Assembly: GCF_005771565.1 (NCBI RefSeq)
Contig: NZ_VAWA01000005.1
Span: forward strand, 62,001 to 126,000
Source: Nesterenkonia sphaerica
GTDB taxonomy: Bacteria > Actinomycetota > Actinomycetes > Actinomycetales > Micrococcaceae
DNA length: 64,000 nt
Reading direction: 5' to 3'
A program made the position numbers and the translations under genes. This document shows positions 11,007 through 60,948 of this stretch, one piece after another. Numbering within the stretch: the stretch's first letter is position 1; every line of letters starts with the position of its first letter. The notes beneath the pieces were generated by a model. It was not told the DNA's origin. It did no database searches and saw only the letters and a program-made list of their open reading frames with translations.

Positions 11007-11120
11007 ATGAAGGTTCAGCCGAGTGTCAAGCCGATCTGCTCGGACTGCAAGACCATCCGCCGTGGTGGGATTGTCCGTGTGATCTGCAAGAACCCGCGCC
11101 ACAAGCAGCGCCAGGGCTGA
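11007..11120 (+). CDS. rpmJ: 50S ribosomal protein L36, zinc-binding (C+) form
   Basis: L36 is the smallest 50S protein. This 37-residue copy reads [20 protein letters not shown] and continues to [13 protein letters not shown]. It keeps the Cys-x2-Cys ... Cys ... His zinc ribbon (Cys11, Cys14, Cys27, His32), so it is the zinc-containing form. The ATG follows a GTAGGAGA site. A second, cysteine-free L36 lies at 44715-44837, giving a zinc-dependent and zinc-independent pair. Confidence 0.96.
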
Positions 11121-44145: not shown

Positions 44146-44176
44146 TTGACTCGCAATAAAAATATTGCAATATACT
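44146..44176 (+). promoter_or_regulatory. Promoter with operator in its spacer, upstream of the ArsR gene
   Basis: TTGACT (44146-44151) and TATACT (44171-44176) are near-consensus with a 19-base spacer. The spacer holds inverted repeat GCAAT-N6-ATTGC (44153-44168), and a perfect 12-base palindrome ATATTGCAATAT covers 44162-44173. The AT-rich stretch stands out from its GC-rich surroundings. It is a likely self-regulatory site for the ArsR-type repressor. Confidence 0.65.
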
Positions 44177-44196
44177 TATATGTGTGGTGAAGTGGG

Positions 44197-44529
44197 ATGG
44201 TGAGCGATAAAACCGCGCTTGCCCAGACTGCGCAGCTGTTCAAGGTCCTCGGTCATGAGTCGCGACTCTGGCTCTTGGAGCTCATTGGACAGGAATCACA
44301 AACGGTAGGTGCCCTGGTGGAGGCAACGGGTATGTCGCAGCCACTGGTGTCGCAGCACTTGCGGGTGCTGAAGCAGGCTGGACTGGCTCGGAGCGAGCGC
44401 CGCGGGAAAGAGGTGGAGTATCAGCTAGCGGACCATCACGTGGCGCACGTGATTGCCGATGCCATTGCTCACACGCAGGAGACTGGACCCACCGTGCCGC
44501 AAAGAGCGGCTGAAGGAGCTTCGCGATGA
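44197..44529 (+). CDS. ArsR/SmtB-family repressor with alpha5-type zinc site
   Basis: ArsR/SmtB proteins repress DNA when metal-free or, in a few cases, respond otherwise to metal. The 110-residue product has a winged helix (GALVEATGMSQPLVSQHLRV, residues 38-57). The last helix carries Asp79, His81, His92 and Glu95, an exact DxH-x10-HxxE pattern known from zinc sensors such as SmtB and CzrA. The ELCVCDL-type alpha3 site for arsenic or cadmium is missing. Its stop overlaps the ATG of the His-rich peptide (ATGA). Confidence 0.88.
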   Translation: MVSDKTALAQTAQLFKVLGHESRLWLLELIGQESQTVGALVEATGMSQPLVSQHLRVLKQAGLARSERRGKEVEYQLADHHVAHVIADAIAHTQETGPTVPQRAAEGASR

Positions 44530-44678
44530 ATGACCACAAGACTGCCGAGCACACTCTCGAAGACCACACCCATGGCCCGAACTGCGGCCATGAGGCTGTG
44601 GATCATGAGGGGCATGTGGATTACCTCCACGACGACCACCGCCATGCAGAGCATGGGGATCACTACGACGAGCACTGA
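44526..44678 (+). CDS. Histidine-rich 50-residue peptide, putative metal binder
   Basis: The frame encodes 50 residues, 13 of them histidine, plus many Asp and Glu and one Cys in HTHGPNCGHEAVDHEGH. It has no signal or membrane segment. The ATG overlaps the stop of the ArsR gene, so both are made together. Similar short proteins, sometimes labelled zinc transporter permease, occur in actinobacteria as far as I recall; they are too small to be permeases. A zinc-buffering or metallochaperone role is inference. Confidence 0.75.
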   Translation: MNDHKTAEHTLEDHTHGPNCGHEAVDHEGHVDYLHDDHRHAEHGDHYDEH

Positions 44679-44702
44679 CCCGCCACAGGGTGCTCAGTAG
44701 GT

Positions 44703-44728
44703 GCCGCCAGGGGTCTAGCCTTGGCGGC
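44703..44728. terminator. Hairpin between convergent His-rich gene and rpmJ2
   Basis: GCCGCCA (44703-44709) pairs with TGGCGGC (44722-44728). It overlaps the stop region of rpmJ2 and may act in both directions. No T-run was seen. Confidence 0.35.
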
Positions 44729-44837
44729 CCTTGAACCGCGGGTTCTGCTTGTTGATGACGTATGTCTTGCCGCGCCGGCGCACTACCTGTGAACCGGGCT
44801 GCTTCTTCAATGAGCGCAGCGACTTGCGAACCTTCAT
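44715..44837 (-). CDS. rpmJ2: 50S ribosomal protein L36, cysteine-free (C-) form
   Basis: The 40-residue product reads [20 protein letters not shown] and ends [11 protein letters not shown]. It is an L36 whose zinc cysteines are all replaced, the form that substitutes for zinc-L36 when zinc is scarce, usually under Zur control. ATG 44837 is preceded by a strong TTGGAGGA site; the longer frame upstream has no merit. It is divergent from the CobW-like gene, and the shared 67-base region holds the island's 22-bp motif. The zinc form is at 11007-11120. Confidence 0.93.
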
Positions 44838-44846
44838 TTGTTCCTC

Positions 44847-44868
44847 CAATTGCGAATGAGTAGCATTA
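44847..44868. promoter_or_regulatory. 22-bp shared operator candidate, site A
   Basis: CAATTGCGAATGAGTAGCAT plus TA lies between rpmJ2 and the CobW-like gene. It matches the site at 48249-48270 in 18 of 22 positions. It contains AATG-N5-CATT as an inverted repeat. On the minus strand a TATGCT -10-like hexamer stands directly before it, so a bound protein would block rpmJ2. Confidence 0.6.
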
Positions 44869-44904
44869 GCATAAATCATAAGCGGAAATATGGAGAGGAC
44901 GCTA

Positions 44905-45933
44905 ATGCCTACAGAGGTCACCGCCGTCGTCGGCGCCTGCGGACCCGAGCGCCAACGCTATGCCCGCATGGCAGCTCACCAGCGCGGTGCGTCTGTGGTG
45001 CCTGCCCAGCAGATCGCCGCCAGCGGCTCAGCGGTGGAGGAAGCACTGGATCATCTCTTGAGGGGTCCCGGGACGGGGCGGCTCGTGGTCGAGTATCCGC
45101 TGCACCACCCTGTGCTGCACATCATCGGGGAGCTGACTGACGCTGACGTCCCTACAGAACTGACTGACCTGGTGTGCCTGGTCGACGCCGCGCACCTGCT
45201 GACAGACCTGTCCTCAGCCGAGCAGCTGCCCCTGGCCAGTGACCAGGACTGCGGCCACTCCTCCGTCTACGCCTCGAGAGCAGAGCTGATTGTCACTCAG
45301 ATCGAGTACGCCTCCCTGGTGGTGTTGGTCAATACGGACTCGCTGCGGGCACATCAGCTGAACCGACTTCTTACGCTTATCAGCTGCCTGGCGCCCAAGG
45401 CTGATATTGACATGGTCGACTCCTCCGGTCACCAGGCCCGGCGCCGGGACCGGGGCAGCTTCACGATGGAGCAGACCCACGCCGGGTGGGTGAGTCTGCT
45501 CAACGGAGACTTCGCTCCGCGGTTCCACGATTCTGCCGTGACGGCCCTGCGCTACGAACAGATGCGCCCCTTTCATCCGGGCCGTCTTGACGACCTGATG
45601 ATGCGCTGGAGGGAGGCCACGGCTGGCGGAGCGCTGCTGCGTTCGGCGGGCTTCTGCCATCTGGCGACGCGGCCCCACATCACGGGGCATTGGAACCAAG
45701 TCGGAACGCACGCAGCTCTGTTTCCCGCCGCTTTCGACCACCAATTGAGTCCCGAGGATGAACCTCTGGCTTTCGGGCAGGATCTGGCGCTCATTGGGGT
45801 CGGTTTTCGGGCTGAGCAGCTGATCCGAGAGCTCGACGACGCGGCGCTGACAGATCAGGAGCTGCTGGGCGGCCCCGCACTCTGGGCCACCTTTCCGGAT
45901 CCTTTCCCGGAATGGCGCACCGCAGACCACTGA
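44905..45933 (+). CDS. CobW/COG0523-like protein with degenerate GTPase motifs
   Basis: COG0523 proteins are usually GTP-driven metallochaperones, several of them for zinc. The 342-residue product keeps the family layout: N-terminal Rossmann-like part ([16 protein letters not shown]), a [10 protein letters not shown] strand, [17 protein letters not shown] where the switch and NKxD-like elements should be, and the C-terminal domain with [12 protein letters not shown] and [13 protein letters not shown]. The P-loop has GACGPERQ instead of GxxGxGKT, and no CxCC motif is present. It may therefore not hydrolyse GTP. ATG 44905 follows a TGGAGAGG site. Confidence 0.82.
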
Positions 45934-45960
45934 GCTGCGGTCCCGACTTTTGGGGCGGCC

Positions 45961-47217
45961 TCACCGTTTCAAAAGCGAACCGACGGTGACCCCGGCTGCC
46001 TGGAAGGGAGCCATATTCCGGGTAAGCACTCGGTCTGAAGAGATGCCGACCGGCAGGATCACGACCTCCTGGCAGAAGCCCACTGCCTGGACCAGCAGCG
46101 CAGAGAGTTCCGCCCACGCCTCGGCCAGCGGCACATGAGTGCCGGCGAGAGCCACCGTCGGCTGCCCGTCTGTGATCATCACGATCCGCCGCTGGCTGGG
46201 ACCATCACCGGCCAAGAGCTTCAACGCCAGTTCCACTCCGTGGGCCAATGGAGTGCCGCCGCCTGCCGGAACCTGGCTGACAGCGCGACGCGCTCTAACG
46301 GGACTGGTGCTGCGCTCAATCAGCGTGCGGGCCGACCCGCCGGCAGCCAGAATCACAGAGACTGCTCCGCGTCGGGAAGCCAGCGAGTCGACGGTTCGAG
46401 TGACGGTCCGCGAGGCCACCGACAAGCCGCTCTGGCCCAGCGAGGAGGAGCCGTCCACCAGCAGCACCGTGTGTGAGCCTCCGCTGCGTCGGCGTCGCAC
46501 TGTGTGCAGATCCGATTCCTGCACGGTGGGCGGACCTGGCGCTCCAGTTGCCCCCATGCGCCTGGCCGCGCGCCGAACAGTGTGTGCGATCGAAATCGGC
46601 GCACCGGTCTCTGCCGGCGCCTCGCGCATTGCGCTGCCACGCCGCAGATTCACCGCCTCGGCCCCTGACCTGCCGGGAAGCGGCTGTGGCGATACTTCCC
46701 GGTTGCGGACCGGTTCGATCTCCGGAGGCAACCCAGGCGGCTCCTCAAGCGAGCAGCTCTCCTCACCGAGTGTCAGCTCTGCCGCCTCCCCCGGGAGGTG
46801 CCTCTCTCCGAGCCCAACAGGCAAGGGGCTGCCAGCGGGTGCGCCACCGCTTGTTGCCTCCGTGCAGGGCTCATCACCGGCGGGCTCATCACCTGCGGGC
46901 TCCTCAGCGGTGCTGGCTTCCTGCCCGTCCTGATCTTCCGCCAATCCCGATTCTGACGCCTCCTCCGAAGGGGGTGGGGTCACCGCAGCTGGGGAGGCAT
47001 CGGGCTCGGCACGATCGTCCTGGTCCTCGTTGGACGTCTCCTGGGGCTGTTCAGCCGCGGAGGGGTCACCGGGCAGAGGAGTCCCCTGGTCCAGTTCCGC
47101 TTCGATCACGCAGAGTTTGGTGGGGGTCTCCGTGTGATCCCACGCCAAGGTGTGCAGACGCCTGCCACCGCGCAGCCGCACCTGGCCCTGGGTACCCCAT
47201 ATGGTGAATCGCTCCAC
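45961..47217 (-). CDS. ChlD/BchD-like chelatase subunit (von Willebrand A domain)
   Basis: ChlD works with the AAA+ subunit ChlI to drive metal insertion by a large ChlH/CobN-type subunit. The 418-residue product has an acidic, Pro- and Glu-rich N-terminal half, then a short basic stretch, and from about residue 248 a vWA domain. The MIDAS residues are Asp255, Ser257 and Ser259 in VDGSSSLG, with Asp350 in MITDGQP, and the ChlD hallmark GGGTPL is at 319-324. The N-terminal AAA-like domain of full ChlD is lacking. It starts with GTG six bases after chlI. Confidence 0.83.
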   Translation of the reverse strand: MERFTIWGTQGQVRLRGGRRLHTLAWDHTETPTKLCVIEAELDQGTPLPGDPSAAEQPQETSNEDQDDRAEPDASPAAVTPPPSEEASESGLAEDQDGQEASTAEEPAGDEPAGDEPCTEATSGGAPAGSPLPVGLGERHLPGEAAELTLGEESCSLEEPPGLPPEIEPVRNREVSPQPLPGRSGAEAVNLRRGSAMREAPAETGAPISIAHTVRRAARRMGATGAPGPPTVQESDLHTVRRRRSGGSHTVLLVDGSSSLGQSGLSVASRTVTRTVDSLASRRGAVSVILAAGGSARTLIERSTSPVRARRAVSQVPAGGGTPLAHGVELALKLLAGDGPSQRRIVMITDGQPTVALAGTHVPLAEAWAELSALLVQAVGFCQEVVILPVGISSDRVLTRNMAPFQAAGVTVGSLLKR

Positions 47218-47223
47218 CGCCGC

Positions 47224-48168
47224 TCACGCTGCCCGCAGGCCCAGGACTCGGGCGGCGGCCAGTTTCACCCGTGTGGAGCCGGAGGTCTGACGCGTACGGG
47301 GTTCCTCAACCATCCTGTGCTGCAGGGTAGGGACGGCGGCGAAGATCACATCACTGCGGGTGACCTCGTCGCGTCCGCCCAACGCTGCGAGAGCTCGGGC
47401 TGTGCGTGTGAGAACAATTTCAGCGCGATGCCCTACAGCCCCCGCCTCGATGCAGATGTCAACGATCTGCTGCGCAGTGTGAGCAGGAGTGTGAACGTGT
47501 GGCAGGCGTGTCCGTGCGTTCACGATGCGGTGAGCCACCTGCTCCTCCGTGTCTGCCCACTGCGCGGAGAATCCCGCAGCATCGTCGTCGAACTGGATCC
47601 GGCGGCGCACAATCTCTGCGCGGAGTCCCTTGTCCCGGATTGTCCGGACCTGTGTGGCCAGACCGAAGCGGTCTTCGAGCTGTGGCCGCAGCTGGCCCTC
47701 CTCTGGGTTTCCGCTTCCGACCAGAACGTACCGTGCCGGGTGCACATGGCTGACTCCGTCCCTCTCCACGCGATTTACTCCTGAGGCAGAGACATCGAGG
47801 AGCACATCAACCAAGAAATCGTCAAGCAGGTTCACCTCGTCTATGTACAGAAACCCGCCATGGGCGTCGCTGAGGATCCCGGGCGCGAACGCCACCTCTC
47901 CGTTGAGTGCTCGCTGGATGTCCATCGTGCCTAGAATGCGGTCCTCGCTGGCACCCAGAGGCAGATCCACTACCGGCATATTGAGCCCATGGGCCGTCAG
48001 GAGCTGCCCCAGAGAGCGGATGGTGGTGGTCTTCGCGGTGCCGCGATCGCCCAGTGCCAGCACCCCGGAAATGCGGGGATCGACGGCTGTGAGGATGAGG
48101 CAGCTTTTCAGTTCGTCCTGACCCAGCACCGCGCTGAAGGGAAAGAGGTAGGACTCACGTGTCTTCAT
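47224..48168 (-). CDS. ChlI/BchI-like AAA+ chelatase ATPase
   Basis: ChlI is the AAA+ motor of magnesium and cobalt chelatases. The 314-residue product starts SYLFPFSAVLGQDELK and has Walker A GDRGTAKT at residues 40-47, PLGASEDRILGTMDI, Walker B FLYIDEVNLLDD at about 106-117, and GSGNPEEGQLRPQLEDRFG, all close to authentic ChlI rather than the MoxR type. ATG 48168 has no clear ribosome site. Upstream, shared with the divergent flavoprotein, is the second copy of the 22-bp motif. No ChlH or CobN gene is in the window. Confidence 0.86.
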   Translation of the reverse strand: MKTRESYLFPFSAVLGQDELKSCLILTAVDPRISGVLALGDRGTAKTTTIRSLGQLLTAHGLNMPVVDLPLGASEDRILGTMDIQRALNGEVAFAPGILSDAHGGFLYIDEVNLLDDFLVDVLLDVSASGVNRVERDGVSHVHPARYVLVGSGNPEEGQLRPQLEDRFGLATQVRTIRDKGLRAEIVRRRIQFDDDAAGFSAQWADTEEQVAHRIVNARTRLPHVHTPAHTAQQIVDICIEAGAVGHRAEIVLTRTARALAALGGRDEVTRSDVIFAAVPTLQHRMVEEPRTRQTSGSTRVKLAAARVLGLRAA

Positions 48169-48248
48169 GCAGCGTGCGTCCGAGCTGTAAACGGTGCGGG
48201 TTCCGGGCGAGGGTCTGGGGGTCTCGAGATCACGTCTGCAGACTAATG

Positions 48249-48280
48249 CAATTGAGAACTAGTAGCAATAAAGCGTAGGG
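48249..48280 (+). promoter_or_regulatory. Promoter of the flavoprotein gene overlapped by the 22-bp motif, site B
   Basis: The motif CAATTGAGAACTAGTAGCAA plus TA covers 48249-48270. TTGAGA (48252-48257) and TAGGGT (48275-48280) are 17 bases apart, so the motif covers the -35 and most of the spacer. It also has ATTG-N11-CAAT as an inverted repeat. The arrangement suits a repressor. It lies in the 120-base divergent gap to the ChlI-like gene. Confidence 0.6.
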
Positions 48281-48288
48281 TGAGTCGG

Positions 48289-49401
48289 ATGCGCATACTA
48301 GACACACTCGTCATTGGAGCCGGCCCTGCTGGGCTGGGCACCGCTCTGGCACTCGATGTGGTTGATGACCTTCACTATGGAGTCGTGGACCGCGGGCGAG
48401 TCGGTCAGACGTTTCTGGACTGGCCGGAGCCGCAGAGGTTTCTCACCCCGTCCTTCCCCTCCAATGGCTACGGTGCCACAGACCTGAACTCCATTCACCC
48501 CCTGACCTCTCCGGCATACAGTTTGGGCGTCGACTACCCCACAGGCAGGCAGTACGCCACCTATCTGCGCAGCGTGGCCAAGATTTTCGAGATTCCGGTG
48601 GTCACTGAGGTGGAAGTTCTTGACGTCCTGCGAAGTGACGGCGACCTCTTCACTGTGGAGACCACGCAGCAGACTCTGCGGGCTCGGACCGTGGTCTGGG
48701 CCGGAGGTGAATTTCACCAGAAGGGTGTGCCCGCAATCTCCGGGGGTGACCTGCTCACCCACGCCTCTGAGAAAGACGCATGGCGACAGCGGGAAGCGGA
48801 TGTAGTCATCCTCGGGGGTTTTGAATCGGGCATCGACCTCGCCTGCCACCACATTGCTCAGGGTGCAAAGCAGGTCACCGTGGTGGACGGCTCTCAGCCC
48901 TGGGATGACCCAGAGGCTTCAGATCCCTCGCTTGAGCTGGCACCGCGGACCCGCATGAGACTGTCCCAAGCCCAGGCCAGCGGCCGACTCGCTTTTTTCC
49001 CCAGTCACGCCGTCGAGGTGGCCCAAGGCGGCGAAGGTTTTGTGGTGGAGCTCGAGGATGGTCAGAAGGTGAGCAGTACTGCGCCGCCGATTGCGGCCAC
49101 GGGGTTCGGTCCAGGACTCGGGCCGGTGAGCGGGCTTTTCGAACAGCGAGACGACGGCTGGCCCCTGGTGGACGACAATGACGAGTCCACCATTATTGAC
49201 GGGCTTTTCCTCTCCGGTGCAGCCTTGCGCCACGGCTCCAAGCGCTTCTGCTTCGTCTACAAATTCCGCCAGCGGTATGCCCATATTGCGCACGCGATTG
49301 GTCACCGGCTGGGCAAGAACACAGACAACCTTGAAGCGTGGCGAGAAGCGGGCATGTGGGCCGAGGACATTGCCGCCTGCGGCGCAGACTGCACATGCTG
49401 A
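48289..49401 (+). CDS. FAD-dependent oxidoreductase (thioredoxin-reductase/CzcO-like) with Cys-rich tail
   Basis: The 370-residue product has the FAD-binding motif VIGAGPAGLGTALAL at residues 8-22, a second dinucleotide motif VVILGGFESGIDLA in the middle, and a late AATGFGPGLG with FLSGAALRHGS. These features fit flavin-dependent pyridine-nucleotide oxidoreductases. The last seven residues are CGADCTC, a Cys-x3-Cys-x-Cys tail that may bind metal or act in redox. ATG 48289 lies 14 bases after TAGGGT; GTG 48280 is the alternative. Its stop overlaps the transporter start. Substrate unknown. Confidence 0.75.
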   Translation: MRILDTLVIGAGPAGLGTALALDVVDDLHYGVVDRGRVGQTFLDWPEPQRFLTPSFPSNGYGATDLNSIHPLTSPAYSLGVDYPTGRQYATYLRSVAKIFEIPVVTEVEVLDVLRSDGDLFTVETTQQTLRARTVVWAGGEFHQKGVPAISGGDLLTHASEKDAWRQREADVVILGGFESGIDLACHHIAQGAKQVTVVDGSQPWDDPEASDPSLELAPRTRMRLSQAQASGRLAFFPSHAVEVAQGGEGFVVELEDGQKVSSTAPPIAATGFGPGLGPVSGLFEQRDDGWPLVDDNDESTIIDGLFLSGAALRHGSKRFCFVYKFRQRYAHIAHAIGHRLGKNTDNLEAWREAGMWAEDIAACGADCTC

Positions 49402-50425
49402 TCGGCGTTGCCCACCATCGCCTTCGCAGTCTTCAGCACCAGGTGGCGGGTCCCGGTCTCGCGGCGCTGCTCTTCGCCGCCGCGATGGGTGCAGGACTGT
49501 TCACCGCCGCTGTGGTGCCGGGGGCATCCGGCTTCGTCAGCGGGGCATCGACCCTCTCATCATGGTCTTGCTCACCGTGCTGTTCCTAGACATCCGATTC
49601 ACCGGCGCAGGCCAGCTCCTGAAGGCACCCCGGACCTTGACCGCAGTCATGGGCATGAACTTCCTGATTATTCCGATACTTGCTTTCGGGCTGACAGCTC
49701 TCGCCATCCCCGGCGACTCCATGCTGCGCTTGGGTGTCCTGATTTACCTGCTTTTTCCGTGTACGGACTGGTTCCTCGGATTCATCCGGATCACCGGGGG
49801 CAACACTGTGCTCGGCGCCGCGCTCATTCCGATTAACCTCTGCATCCAGGTGACGCTCTATCCGTTTTGGATCAGCTTGTTCACCGGCGAGCCGATCGGT
49901 GCGGTCCTTTCAGCTTTCGGTCCTGCCGCGCTGTACGGCATCGGCATTCCTGTCGGGATCGCGGTCGCGATTCGCCTCGGACTGGGCTTGGCGGCAGACC
50001 ACAACGCGGCGCAACGGTTCTGCGCCAGGATGTCCAGAGCAGCGCCCTGGATCTTGGCACTGACAATTTTTTCGCTGTTTGCGGCCTTTGGGGAGCTCTC
50101 CGTGGCTTCGAAGGATTTCGGGCAGGTGCTGCTGGCGGTGTTCTGCTACTTTGTGGTGACCTTCATTCTCATCGAACTGATCTCTCGGGGGCTGAAGCTG
50201 CACCCTCAGGATCACGCACTGCTGACTTTTACCGTGTCTGCGCGCAATGCGCCGTTGATGCTGGCAATCACTGCTACAGCCTTCGGCGATGAGCCTGTGC
50301 TGATGGCAGCCATTGTGCTGGGAATGCTCCTGGAATTTCCTCACCTGACGGCACTAACGTGGCTGCTACGGCGGCGTGCCAGCAGCCACCAGGCGCCCTC
50401 AGAGATCCGGGTCGGGGTCGGATAG
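49395..50425 (+). pseudogene. SBF/ACR3-like membrane transporter, interrupted by a one-base deletion
   Basis: The first 50 codons from ATG 49395 (overlapping the flavoprotein stop) give a first membrane helix, GLAALLFAAAMGAGLFTAAV. At the GGGG run 49542-49545 the frame must shift by -1 to continue into IDPLIMVLLTVLFLDIRF and eight or so further helices to 50425. One extra G would give ...GFVSGGIDPLIMV, a smooth fit to the bile acid:sodium symporter/ACR3 fold. It could be a real frameshift, a sequencing error or programmed slippage. Substrate is unknown; arsenite is only one option. Confidence 0.75.
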
Positions 50426-51385: not shown

Positions 51386-51550
51386 GATAGCCTCTTTCTA
51401 GAGTGACCAGCATCCAAGTGATCCCCATGGGGTGTTCTCCCATCATATGCTAAGGTTCTCGGTTCGTCATTGGGATATTTCTCTAGTTTTTTTGACACCG
51501 CGGGAGGCTCAGTGGAGAAATTCCTCGCTCACCGATGGAAAGGTCATCAC
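51386..51550. other. Divergent intergenic region before the CopC-like gene
   Basis: This is unusually AT-rich for the window. A TAAGGT hexamer at 51451-51456 may be a -10, and a GGAAAGG ribosome site precedes ATG 51551. No copy of the 22-bp island motif and no supported small gene. Confidence 0.3.
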
Positions 51551-52261
51551 ATGCATTCGGCCCCGACTTCTCGAGTCGCATGGCGGCTGGGAGGTGCCGT
51601 CTCGGCGACTCTGGCCCTGGGATTGGCGGCTTCTCCGGCCGCACACGCCCATGACACGTTGGTGGAATCCGCCCCCGAGTCCGACGAGGTGCTTGAGGAG
51701 TCTCCAGACGAGGTGGTCCTGGAGTTCTCCGGTGATGGCATCACCACTGGTGCCGCCATCACCAATGACATCGTGGTGCTGGACTCGGACCAAGAGGATT
51801 GGGCCTCCGAAGAGCCGGCAGAGGTGGAGGGGTCCACCATGCGGACTGAGATCCCGGAGCCGTTGCCCAATGGCGAATACGAAGTCCGCTACCGAGTGGT
51901 GTACTCAGACGGTCACGACGAGGAACAGGGTTTCACCTTTGAGGTGGAGGCACCGCTGGAGGAGGGGGCGGATGAAGCGACGCTGGGTGACCCGGATGAT
52001 GCCGAGGCTGCCGAAGAGCCTACGGAGCCCAGCGATGAGAGCCCCAAGACAGCCGAACCCCCGCCGACCGAAGAGACTGATGAGGATGCGGCACTGAGTC
52101 AGTCACAGGCCCAGGGTGGAGACGAACGGTGGGGACAGGGACTGTTCTGGGCCGGCCTGGTGGCAGCTTTGGCCGCTATCGTCACCGTCGTGTGGTTCGC
52201 GCTCCGCCGCCGCAGCACAGTCTCGGAACCTGGAGGGGGGTCTGAGCGAGGCGGAGACTGA
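51551..52261 (+). CDS. CopC-domain copper-binding protein, membrane-anchored
   Basis: CopC domains bind copper outside the cell and often feed a CopD permease. The 236-residue product has a signal peptide (cut after AAHA, residue 33), which leaves His34 as the N-terminal Cu ligand (HDTLVESAP). The beta-sandwich includes NGEYEVRYRVVYSDGHDEEQ with the second histidine. An acidic Glu/Pro-rich stalk follows, then a membrane helix (GLFWAGLVAALAAIVTVVWF) and a basic tail. ATG 51551 is preferred over 51470 for its signal start. No CopD gene is next to it. Confidence 0.87.
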   Translation: MHSAPTSRVAWRLGGAVSATLALGLAASPAAHAHDTLVESAPESDEVLEESPDEVVLEFSGDGITTGAAITNDIVVLDSDQEDWASEEPAEVEGSTMRTEIPEPLPNGEYEVRYRVVYSDGHDEEQGFTFEVEAPLEEGADEATLGDPDDAEAAEEPTEPSDESPKTAEPPPTEETDEDAALSQSQAQGGDERWGQGLFWAGLVAALAAIVTVVWFALRRRSTVSEPGGGSERGGD

Positions 52262-58340: not shown

Positions 58341-59942
58341 CTACAGCGGGATATTTCCGTGCTTCTTGGCTGGCGGGGTCTCACGCTTGTGATAGGTGGC
58401 CTGCAGCGCTTTGCCGATCTGCCACCGGGTTTCGGCAGGCTCGATCACCGCGTCAATGTAACCGAGTTCGGCTGCCTGATAGGGGTTCAGCAGTGCTGCC
58501 TCGTAGTCTTCAATGAGCTCTTGGCGGCGGGCTTCCACGTCCCCGCCGTCTTGACTGACCTTGGCCAGCTCCCGGCGGTGGAGAATGTTCACCGCGCCTT
58601 GGGCCCCCATCACACCGATCTGTGCGGTGGGCCAGGCCAGATTGATGTCCGCACCGAGCTTCTTGGAGCCCATCACGATGTACGCCCCGCCGAAGGCCTT
58701 GCGGGTGATCACCGTGATCTTCGGGACGGTGGCCTCTGCGTATGCGTACAGCAGTTTGGCGCCGCGCCGGATGATGCCGCCCCATTCCTGATCGGTGCCG
58801 GGGAGGAACCCAGGCACGTCCACCAGGGTCAGGATCGGAATGTTGAAGGCGTCGCAGAAACGCACGAATCGCGCGGCTTTTTCGGATGCTGCGATGTCCA
58901 GGGTGCCGGCCAGTTGACTGGGCTGGTTGGCGACCACCCCCACAGAGCGTCCTGAGATGCGCCCGAAACCGGTGATGATGTTGGGCGCGTAGAGGGCCTG
59001 CAGCTGCAGGAAGTAGCCGTCGTCGACAAGCTGCTCCACCAGGGCTGCCATGTCATATGGTGCCGAGGCCGAATCCGGCACCAAACTGTTCAGCGCCTCA
59101 TCCTCGGCCTCAATCTTGGGGCGTTCCTCAAACGGTTCTTCAGGAGACTCCGCCAGGTTGTTCAGCGGTAGGAACTCCAGCAGCTCTTTGGCGAACTCGA
59201 TGGCATCCTCTTCGTCGAGGGCCATGTAGGTGGCGGTGCCGGTGGTGGTGTTGTGTGAGCGAGCACCTCCGAGGGCCTCCATGTCGACGTCTTCACCCGT
59301 GACGGACTTGATGACGTCAGGACCGGTGATGAACATGTGGGACGTCTTATCCACCATGATCACGAAGTCCGTCAGGGCCGGGGAATAGGCCGCTCCGCCT
59401 GCCGCCGGCCCCATAATGAGGGTGATCTGAGGGATCACGCCTGAGGAGTGGACATTGTTGCGGAAGATATCGGCGAACATCGCCAGGGAGGCTACGCCTT
59501 CCTGGATGCGGGCACCGCCCCCGTCATTGATACCGATCACCGGGCACCCGTTGCGAGCGGCAAACTCCTGGACCTTGACGATCTTCTCACCGTTGACGGC
59601 GCTGAGTGAACCCCCGAAGACCGCGAAATCCTGGGCATAGACCGCCACCATGCGTCCGTCGATGGTGCCGTACCCGGAGACCAGGCCGTCGCCGACCAGC
59701 TTCTTCTTCTCCATGCCGAACGCATGGGTGCGGTGCACCGCGAGTGCGTCGAACTCGACAAAGGAGTCCTCATCCAAGAGCATCTCAATGCGCTCCCGGG
59801 CGGTGTGCTTGCCCCGGTTGTGCTGCTTGGCGATCGCCTCCTCGCCCGCCGGGGCGAGGGTCTGGTCACGACGACGGCGAAAATCTGCCAGTTTGTCAGC
59901 AGTGGTTCTCGGCCGTGCGACACCGGGTGAGGATTTGTCCAT
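58341..59942 (-). CDS. accD5: Acyl-CoA carboxylase beta subunit (carboxyltransferase)
   Basis: The beta subunit transfers CO2 from biotin to acetyl- or propionyl-CoA. The 533-residue product has [39 protein letters not shown] and [19 protein letters not shown] in the N-domain, and [20 protein letters not shown] and [16 protein letters not shown] in the C-domain. These glycine-rich loops form the oxyanion holes for the acyl-CoA and carboxybiotin. It is the first gene of a four-gene leftward operon. Exact substrate preference cannot be told by eye. Confidence 0.93.
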
Positions 59943-60105
59943 AGTGGGCTATCAGGCGCTTTCGTCGTCGTGCTGTACGGGTTCCACAAACTTTGCGCCA
60001 GTCTAATGAGCCAGGGGTCCTTTGCGGATGTAGGGACCCTACAAAAACTGAGGCCTTCCAACATTACAATTAACAACGATTCCTACTGATGAGTAAGCTG
60101 TGACT
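59943..60105. promoter_or_regulatory. Divergent control region of accD5 and the SDR gene
   Basis: TAAGCT at 60094-60099 lies 12 bases before ATG 60106, a likely leaderless promoter for the SDR. GGGTCC and GGACCC near 60016-60050 form a weak inverted repeat. The region is AT-rich compared with its surroundings. Confidence 0.4.
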
Positions 60106-60948
60106 ATGACCACAAACGCGCTGGCTTCAAAAACCGTTCTCATCTCCGGCGGCAGCCGTGGCATCGGCCACGCTATTGCGGTGAAGCTCGCGGCGGCCGG
60201 GGCCAATATTGTGCTGCTGGCGAAGACCGGCCGGGCCCACGATTCACTTCCGGGCACGGTGCACACCGCAGTCGATGATGTGGTCGCCGCCGGCGGTGAC
60301 GGGCTGGCAGTGGTCGGCGATATCCGCCGCGACGAAGACATCGCGCGGGCAGTGGATGCTGCGCTCGAGCGCTTCGGCGCCATTGACGCGGTGGTGAACA
60401 ATGCCTCGGCAATTGATCTGAGCCCAGCTGAGCACCAACAGATGAAGCGCTATGACCTCATGCACGACATCAACGCCCGCGGCACCTTCGCCCTCTCCCG
60501 GGCCGTGATCCCGCATCTGCGCCACAGCGCGCAACACAGCGGGTGGGTTCCCAAGATCCTGACCCTGTCCCCGCCGCTGAATCTTGACCCCGTCTGGTTC
60601 GGCCGGCACCTGGCGTACACCATGAGCAAGTACGCTATGTCCATGACCACTCTGGGGCTGGCCGCCGAGCTGGATGAGGTCGGCGTGAGCGTGAACTCGC
60701 TGTGGCCGGCGACGCTGATTGAGACCGCCGCACTGCGCAGTATCCCTGAAGGTGAGCAGCTCGCTCGGGGAGCGCGGTCCCCGCAGATCGTCGCCGACGC
60801 CGCCAGCTCACTGCTCAGCGGGGAGGCGGACTTTGGCACCGGGCAGTTTTTGACGGATGAGCAGGTGCTCGCCTCTGTGGGGGTCACTGACTTTGCTCAC
60901 TACGCCGTGGACCCGGCCAGCGAGCTGGTCCCTGACATCTTCCTGTAG
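60106..60948 (+). CDS. Short-chain dehydrogenase/reductase, HSDL2-like
   Basis: The 280-residue product has the NAD(P)-binding motif SGGSRGIGHAIAVKLAAAG, VVNNASAIDLSP and a catalytic Tyr-x3-Lys in AYTMSKYAMSM. The surrounding PPLNLDPVWFGRHLAYT and NSLWPATLIETAA match the hydroxysteroid-dehydrogenase-like 2 group, often linked to lipid metabolism. ATG 60106 is preferred over GTG 60100. It lies beside acyl-CoA carboxylase genes, which suggests a fatty-acid role, but substrate is unproven. Confidence 0.85.
   Translation: MTTNALASKTVLISGGSRGIGHAIAVKLAAAGANIVLLAKTGRAHDSLPGTVHTAVDDVVAAGGDGLAVVGDIRRDEDIARAVDAALERFGAIDAVVNNASAIDLSPAEHQQMKRYDLMHDINARGTFALSRAVIPHLRHSAQHSGWVPKILTLSPPLNLDPVWFGRHLAYTMSKYAMSMTTLGLAAELDEVGVSVNSLWPATLIETAALRSIPEGEQLARGARSPQIVADAASSLLSGEADFGTGQFLTDEQVLASVGVTDFAHYAVDPASELVPDIFL

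Follow-up and report, generated by a model that had tools for sequence, protein, structure and literature searches.

What does a ChlI-ChlD pair, by default annotated as magnesium or cobalt chelatase, do amidst genes of zinc shortage? The question is raised by a 64-kb stretch of the Nesterenkonia sphaerica genome (here called the window; contig 44, positions 62001-126000, of an assembly of 2.79 Mb in 86 contigs, 99.27% complete). In it, chlI and chlD lie close to the genes of a flavoprotein with a cysteine tail, a cysteine-free ribosomal protein L36 and a COG0523-like protein (Table 1). An earlier examination of the bare letters, the original prediction, had proposed a zinc-limitation island at 44146..50425, and the genes which it named were all located at or very near the positions it gave. 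On balance we lean towards a Zur-type zinc-shortage regulon which includes a ChlI/vWA motor devoid of an H subunit and remodelling a protein client. At the sequence level, the regulation and gene content of such a regulon are well supported. Given its operator, the failure to find an H subunit and the signs of purifying selection, we read the pair as having a role in zinc economy and not as a magnesium or cobalt chelatase.

Two matrices were used in the operator scans. Matrix 1 (22 bp) was built from the L36/COG0523-like sites of 12 Nesterenkonia genomes. Matrix 2 (18 bp) was restricted to other genera to avoid circularity; it was assembled from 16 sites chosen by eye, 13 upstream of flavoprotein genes and 3 upstream of L36. 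Scores were compared with 2000 dinucleotide shuffles per upstream region. When both strands of the window were ranked with matrix 1, the site between the L36 and COG0523-like genes came first (44850-44871, 35.8) and that between chlI and the flavoprotein gene second (48252-48273, 20.1). They were followed by a reverse overlap of the former (10.0), and the next independent score was 8.8. With matrix 2 the two sites scored 17.4, reached by 10 of 2000 shuffles, and 17.3, reached by none. When 15 further Nesterenkonia L36 loci were inspected by eye, the L36/COG0523-like site recurred in 14, L050 being the exception. Thus, the proposal that chlI-chlD and the flavoprotein share one response with L36 and the COG0523-like protein was upheld inasmuch as a predicted zinc-type operator is common to all of them.

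The same place was occupied in the other chlI-bearing species. Before the chlI operon of N. haasae (G178) a matrix-2 site of 20.6 was the top of the locus (next independent score 10.5; 0/2000 shuffles). The corresponding values were 20.9 for G153 (top of a 19-kb locus, next 5.3; 0/2000) and 17.8 for Nesterenkonia sp. PF2B19 (G470; top of the locus, next 6.5; 1/2000). A zinc-type site therefore precedes chlI or its operon in four of four chlI-bearing Nesterenkonia genomes, in two of which chlI-chlD is separate from the remaining zinc genes that were located. Because of this recurrence chlI-chlD very probably belongs to the zinc (Zur) regulon, as judged from the predicted operators. Matrix 2 was also applied to 336 upstream regions of 19 loci. 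Among the 42 best, 32 preceded L36, COG0523-like, flavoprotein, SBF, chlI, chlI-operon methyltransferase or znuA genes. The other ten belonged to three ankyrin-type genes transcribed divergently from an SBF or flavoprotein gene, two genes of unknown family and an oxidoreductase gene beside L36, an ArsR and an importer gene sharing one N. haasae region, and window genes at 58341 and 60106. The chlI gene of G153 had been missed in gene calling and was outside the 336 regions; its upstream was scanned directly. By contrast, 27 loci with a less similar ChlI, in 26 further genomes of this order, for which whole-locus scores were used, had no score above 7.9 in the stored 2.6-3.8 kb, beyond which an operator would escape. 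An ordinary cobalt/magnesium chelatase was rejected, as no H subunit was found and these less similar loci showed no operator in the stored stretch. As a separate observation, one SBF transporter gene (L047, 3365-4393) had a strong zinc-type operator (24.5) and no flavoprotein gene called beside it.

Which regulator would act at these sites? In the window genome one Fur-family gene adjoins znuABC, and the same operator type is found upstream of znuA (19.5, matrix 2). The only other Fur-family gene adjoins a peroxidase-family (KatG-like) gene. In Corynebacterium glutamicum Zur represses cg0794 (COG0523) and cg0795 (oxidoreductase) via 21-bp inverted-repeat operators, and paralogues of ribosomal proteins, e.g. 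RpmJ, are among the predicted members of Zur regulons in actinobacteria (PMC2823685). The likeness consists in COG0523 and oxidoreductase genes under Zur-type boxes, Cg0795 being likened by description only. The two systems differ in that cg0794 and cg0795 diverge from each other, and the text of PMC2823685 does not contain the word chelatase.

We now turn to the proteins. The Walker motifs of ChlI (A, GDRGTAKT; B, FLYIDE) are both intact. With the bpMoxR model the protein scores 29.3 bits (cut-off 27), but ChlI models score far higher. The ChlD-like protein has the residues of a metal ion-dependent adhesion site (MIDAS; DGSSS, GGGT, ITDG). Upon alignment with the full-length ChlD of another Nesterenkonia, no AAA+ domain was found in the proteins of the window and N. 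haasae. As a small correction to the original prediction, the ChlD encoded here is a truncated, vWA-only form. An H subunit (ChlH/CobN; PF02514) was found in none of the four chlI-bearing Nesterenkonia genomes, which are 96-99% complete. It could be argued that chlI-chlD works with an H-like protein which is too divergent for PF02514 or missing from the assemblies; a very divergent H could indeed escape a sequence search. Yet the same search did find H in 5 of 14 controls and in 2 of 10 genomes searched, which are those of the ChlI-bearing Microlunatus and Lolliginicoccus. We consider a hidden H quite improbable.

Ratios of nonsynonymous to synonymous substitution rates (dN/dS) against N. haasae were 0.09 for ChlI, 0.09 for the flavoprotein, 0.26 for ChlD (0.17 for its vWA part, the last 190 residues) and 0.19 for the neighbouring universal stress protein; with dS at 1.3-1.7 these values are rough. 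As far as such ratios tell, ChlI and the flavoprotein look to be under purifying selection.

Gene neighbourhoods were compared using our own gene calls and BLAST, and key names were checked with Pfam. Counting our own, 30 genomes of the genus were compared: 17 had the COG0523-like gene, four the flavoprotein and four ChlI. ChlI and flavoprotein occurred in the same four genomes, the window genome (G000), N. haasae, PF2B19 and G153. Were the genomes independent of one another, the probability of such a coincidence would be 1 in 27,405, but they share ancestry and are not independent. When mapped onto the COG0523-like protein tree, the joint trait required three changes, two of them forced by well-supported branches; G483, the sister of N. 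haasae on this tree, has neither gene. Of the 17 Nesterenkonia rows, 15 were placed on this tree together with a single outgroup; it does not cover the 13 genomes that lack the COG0523-like gene. At wider range, ChlI (E<=1e-50) was found in 27 of 396 genomes of the order, the other 26 less similar and in open frames of 470-1769 amino acids. The flavoprotein was found in one of 297 order genomes at E<=1e-40 (our own) and, with a profile (E<=1e-30), in 12 of 396 genomes of the phylum, ours among them. In a different set, 12 named genomes with a flavoprotein locus, ChlI was present in four: two Nesterenkonia, Microlunatus and Lolliginicoccus, the last two also with H. A ChlD query had no match in the named genome collection and matched in four of 197 family genomes (own included); in one of the four the match was weak (E 6e-4) and fell on a different vWA protein.

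Is the proposed island then a conserved unit? It is not. In N. haasae one contig carries methyltransferase-chlI-chlD, divergent from flavoprotein-SBF, and another carries ArsR-HisR, L36, the COG0523-like gene and a ZnuA/ABC-type metal importer. In G153 and G470, flavoprotein-SBF, argG, argH, a transglycosylase-like gene, L36 and the COG0523-like gene are assembled in about 8 kb, and chlI-chlD is elsewhere. A conserved six-gene island was therefore rejected. Parts of the linkage did recur, and a lack of conserved linkage, named in the original prediction as refuting it, holds only by half: chlI and the flavoprotein gene are divergent neighbours in the window genome and N. haasae, i.e. in two of the four genomes (unlinked in G153 and G470), and the flavoprotein gene lies with L36 and the COG0523-like gene in 5 of 12 named loci.

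Several observations weigh against the preferred reading. First, 20 block shuffles of the whole window gave maxima of 10.6-17.3, and one of the 20 reached 17.3. The window chlI site by itself would thus be borderline in a 64-kb scan; what carries the operator case is matrix 1 together with the recurrence of a site at this place in all four genomes. Second, two more window sites, 60070-60087 (17.6) and 60126-60143 (18.7), score as high as the chlI site with matrix 2, so some matches are due to chance or other causes. They stand between a carboxyltransferase gene (58341-59942, minus strand) and a short-chain dehydrogenase gene (60100-60948, plus strand). Third, the Fur-family protein on the znuABC side remains below every curated cut-off (Fur 70 bits, Zur 36); because of this the label Zur is derived from the place of its gene beside znuABC. 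Fourth, ChlI is absent from 26 of the 30 genus genomes and from 8 of 10 genomes of other genera with the flavoprotein, which consequently does not need ChlI. Furthermore, joint presence in the window genome and N. haasae may reflect adjacency, as a joint loss could be a single event. Finally, the dN/dS of ChlI was 0.22 between G153 and G470, and a ChlD without AAA+ domain here together with a ChlD gene spread over two frames in G470 could mean decay.

The third point leads to the question which metal is sensed. If the sites were operators of another metal regulator, for iron or manganese, the genes would answer to a metal other than zinc. The curated models, which do not call the Fur-family regulator Zur, would allow this, and the operator core resembles general Fur-family boxes. 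However, the same operator type precedes the cysteine-free L36 gene and znuA. Likewise, the C. glutamicum box which controls cg0794/cg0795 is a 21-bp Zur box of the same type (PMC2823685). Regulation by another metal is the least probable of the alternatives considered here.

The last point requires a closer look at the origin of the pair. Outside Nesterenkonia, the ChlI found to be most closely related is that of Microlunatus parietis, where a B12/siderophore-type importer, H, ChlI and ChlD form one operon (L095, 4242-13166). This H passes the BchH cut-off (977 bits versus 829), and upstream of the operon is a zinc-type site of 15.3 (matrix 2; next 4.9; 6/2000 shuffles). The operon is a candidate zinc-regulated chelatase, and such a zinc-controlled complete chelatase is a likely ancestor or cousin of the Nesterenkonia pair. 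The M. parietis genome also has a flavoprotein-SBF pair. In the ChlI tree Nesterenkonia and Microlunatus constitute one supported clade (five rows, 100/99), its Microlunatus row being flagged as a long branch. Possibly, then, chlI-chlD is left over from a Zur-controlled complete chelatase (importer, H, I, D) which removed metal from a tetrapyrrole-like chelate after its import, or inserted metal into it; in Nesterenkonia H would have been lost, with the remaining parts now idle or in decay. A Zur-regulated operon with methyltransferase, receptor and CobN-like genes in Pseudomonas aeruginosa would fit (PMC4542158), as would the ChlD shortened here and its counterpart in G470 (L037, 9721-11662), whose two overlapping frames signify decay or an assembly error. 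Against a relic speak the ChlI dN/dS of 0.09, equal to that of the flavoprotein, and 0.17 for the vWA part. Also, the Walker and MIDAS motifs are kept in the window and the operators are kept in two lineages. We judge a relic unlikely, yet of all alternatives the one to be taken most seriously.

A retained motor without H has precedents of a different kind. NorQD is a known case of metal insertion by an AAA+/vWA pair that lacks an H subunit; in the mechanism proposed for it, the client is held by the vWA protein while the AAA+ ring pulls on a linker so that metal can enter (PMC13036017; PMC9976466). NorQ/NorD-type pairs and the pair described here have in common an AAA+ ring protein and a vWA protein (linker, MIDAS) in one operon without tetrapyrrole subunit. 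They differ in that the AAA+ protein here is nearer to ChlI than to MoxR and that no cognate target enzyme was recognised in the operon. Because the nearest relative is ChlI, the resemblance is one of architecture, an analogy and not membership. To the H-I-D chelatases of magnesium and cobalt the pair is related by a ChlI-type AAA+ protein with Walker motifs and a vWA subunit; it departs from them in that no H was found, ChlD is without AAA+ (window, N. haasae) and scores are below the curated cut-offs. In P. aeruginosa PA1921-PA1925, the genes under Zur likewise comprise a methyltransferase and one of chelatase type (PMC4542158), yet a CobN-like (H) subunit is included, whereas the Nesterenkonia genomes yielded I and D but no H. 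In open-licence literature we found no paper linking ChlI/ChlD to zinc limitation and nothing relevant on Nesterenkonia with Zur.

How might such a regulon operate? Zinc-loaded Zur would sit on the operators of two divergent promoters, L36/COG0523-like and chlI/flavoprotein, and would leave both at zinc shortage. Zinc-free L36 would then take the place of the zinc-binding L36. For the COG0523-like protein a role resembling that of Rv0106/MRF, at the ribosome or as an adaptor that binds zinc, is probable. The flavoprotein, with its flexible cysteine tail and partner transporter, might act on a small molecule bound to a thiol or metal, or on a metal carried by the tail. ChlI and the vWA-only ChlD may form an ATP-driven AAA+/vWA machine without tetrapyrrole-binding subunit. 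Like NorQD, it would hold a protein client with the MIDAS face and pull on it, letting a metal in or out; by analogy, this mechanism is a tentative suggestion, somewhat on the doubtful side. The flavoprotein is a candidate client. The more specific notion that the pair was freed from H and became a Zur-controlled ATP machine remodelling a metalloprotein, possibly this flavoprotein, with zinc recovered or another metal inserted, we consider rather unlikely. If true, a ChlI/vWA machine of zinc shortage would link chelatase motors to protein metallation machines of the NorQD type.

The flavoprotein merits attention irrespective of ChlI. It ends with CGADCTC. The tail cysteines C364, C368 and C370 (numbered from start 48289) are kept in 24 of 24 aligned homologs, and C321 is also conserved; two duplicate loci and one locus lacking a called gene were left out of the alignment. 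An AlphaFold model from 23 sequences had a mean predicted local distance difference test score (pLDDT) of 87.0, the tail being of low confidence. By sequence and by fold the closest solved structure was Staphylococcus aureus 3d1c, a putative flavin-containing monooxygenase released in 2008. The match with the family profile extends over the full length (E 2.8e-103) including the same kind of tail (DD.SCC...C.C); identity in the structural match is 28%. 3d1c is one structure of a zinc-locus flavoprotein family with conserved cysteine tail. Bacillithiol disulfide reductases were the second-nearest fold, but with 71 bits versus a cut-off of 340 this assignment was rejected. The tail recalls that of mercuric reductase, a flavin reductase with a mobile cysteine tail. 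An arsenic resistance locus (ArsR, ACR3-like, ArsO-like) was also rejected, as ArsO scored 41.5 versus a cut-off of 425, ACR3 62.7 versus 282.8, and the neighbours are zinc genes. A role in anti-phage defence was set aside as well, a single weak AAA+ match being all that pointed to it.

In the 12 named flavoprotein loci an SBF gene adjoins in 12 and L36 plus a COG0523-like gene lie within 10 kb in five. Of 11 distant homolog loci (L084-L094), ten have an adjoining FeoB-like GTPase/Gate protein (domains checked in three), six have znuA/znuB nearby and five ArsR plus HisR. Because SBF, L36/COG0523-like, znuAB and ArsR/HisR genes recur beside its homologs, the flavoprotein is, by predicted gene neighbourhood, a zinc-locus protein in its own right across Actinomycetota. 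A search of open-licence literature on CzcO flavoproteins and zinc yielded nothing relevant. In L084 a SaoD/DsrE-family gene was seen upstream, and a similar-looking one in L086. The SBF transporter had been described as broken, and so it is: its C-terminal part is in the 49562-50425 frame and the N-terminal part in another, whereas relatives have intact copies.

The COG0523-like protein contains CobW_C but, as a further small correction to the original prediction, is a P-loop-less relative. Because neither the Walker A motif GxxxxGK[ST] nor CxC/CxCC was found in its sequence, it is by sequence not a GTPase. The Walker A and CxCC motifs were also absent in 14 other Nesterenkonia proteins and one from Agreia which were checked. 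The loss is not universal in the group since relatives beside flavoprotein loci, L062 8768-9787 (Cryobacterium) and L085 4719-5981, retain the P-loop. A precedent is Rv0106 of Mycobacterium tuberculosis, described without Walker A and CXCC (PMC2770081). The AlphaFold model (14 aligned sequences, mean pLDDT 83.7) had the COG0523 GTPase YjiA as best solved match (E 4e-13), at a low template modelling (TM)-score of 0.35-0.40. With Rv0106/MRF and ZigA the protein shares a tie to genes of zinc-free ribosomal proteins, which for MRF is suggested by the NCBIfam name. It differs from both in scoring below the curated cut-offs (ZigA 116 bits, MRF 63 bits) and in having L36 as partner. The ordinary L36 with three cysteines is encoded separately at 11007-11120.

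In Nesterenkonia a transglycosylase-like gene often adjoins L36/COG0523-like genes or chlD (L035 8684-9463, L036 6969-7682, L005 10532-11461 and others), with a Pfam SLT match in L005 and no Pfam match in L035. Two loci (L038 11287-18416 and L044 10163-18000) have ZnuA/ABC importers and choice-of-anchor M surface-protein-like proteins near an L36/COG0523-like gene.

Table 1. Features of the N. sphaerica locus (window coordinates).
Feature	Position	Strand	Evidence
ArsR/SmtB-type regulator	44197..44529	+	NF033788 84 bits, cut-off 55; alpha-5 pattern complete
His-rich peptide, 50 amino acids	44526..44678	+	13 His in 50 residues
Type B (cysteine-free) ribosomal protein L36	44715..44837	-	NCBIfam NF002021 74.8 bits, cut-off 70
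Putative Zur-type operator, L36/COG0523-like intergenic	44850..44871	.	Matrix scans
COG0523-like protein	44890..45933, alternative start 44905	+	CobW_C 39 bits, cut-off 22
ChlD-like protein, acidic linker and vWA	45961..47217	-	VWA_2 41.5 bits; intact MIDAS
ChlI-type AAA+ ATPase	47224..48168	-	TIGR02030 364 bits, TIGR02442 377 bits, both below cut-off; Walker motifs
Putative Zur-type operator, chlI/flavoprotein intergenic	48252..48273	.	Matrix scans
FAD/NAD(P)H flavoprotein, cysteine tail	48280..49401, alternative start 48289	+	Pyr_redox_3 268 bits
SBF-family transporter gene, reading frame interrupted in the present assembly	49338..50425	+	SBF 38.5 bits in 49178-50425 frame

The ArsR regulator had been counted among the zinc-shortage genes. 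This did not hold for the window gene, for which no Zur-type operator was seen (best score before the gene 2.1, a value reached by 1433 of 2000 shuffles). A zinc-type site of 18.5 does precede ArsR in N. haasae. From residue 79 on the window protein carries D-x-H-x10-H-x2-E, the alpha-5 zinc-site pattern, and it probably represents the sensor on the zinc-excess side. The His-rich peptide is a probable metal buffer; homologs were found with ArsR in one Gulosibacter locus and also in 5 of the 11 distant flavoprotein loci. A scan of the window returned no tRNA or RNA family over threshold. Further downstream, a secreted protein with a CopC domain is encoded at 51470-52261 near a universal stress gene, and the gene order near chlI-chlD in N. 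haasae is similar.

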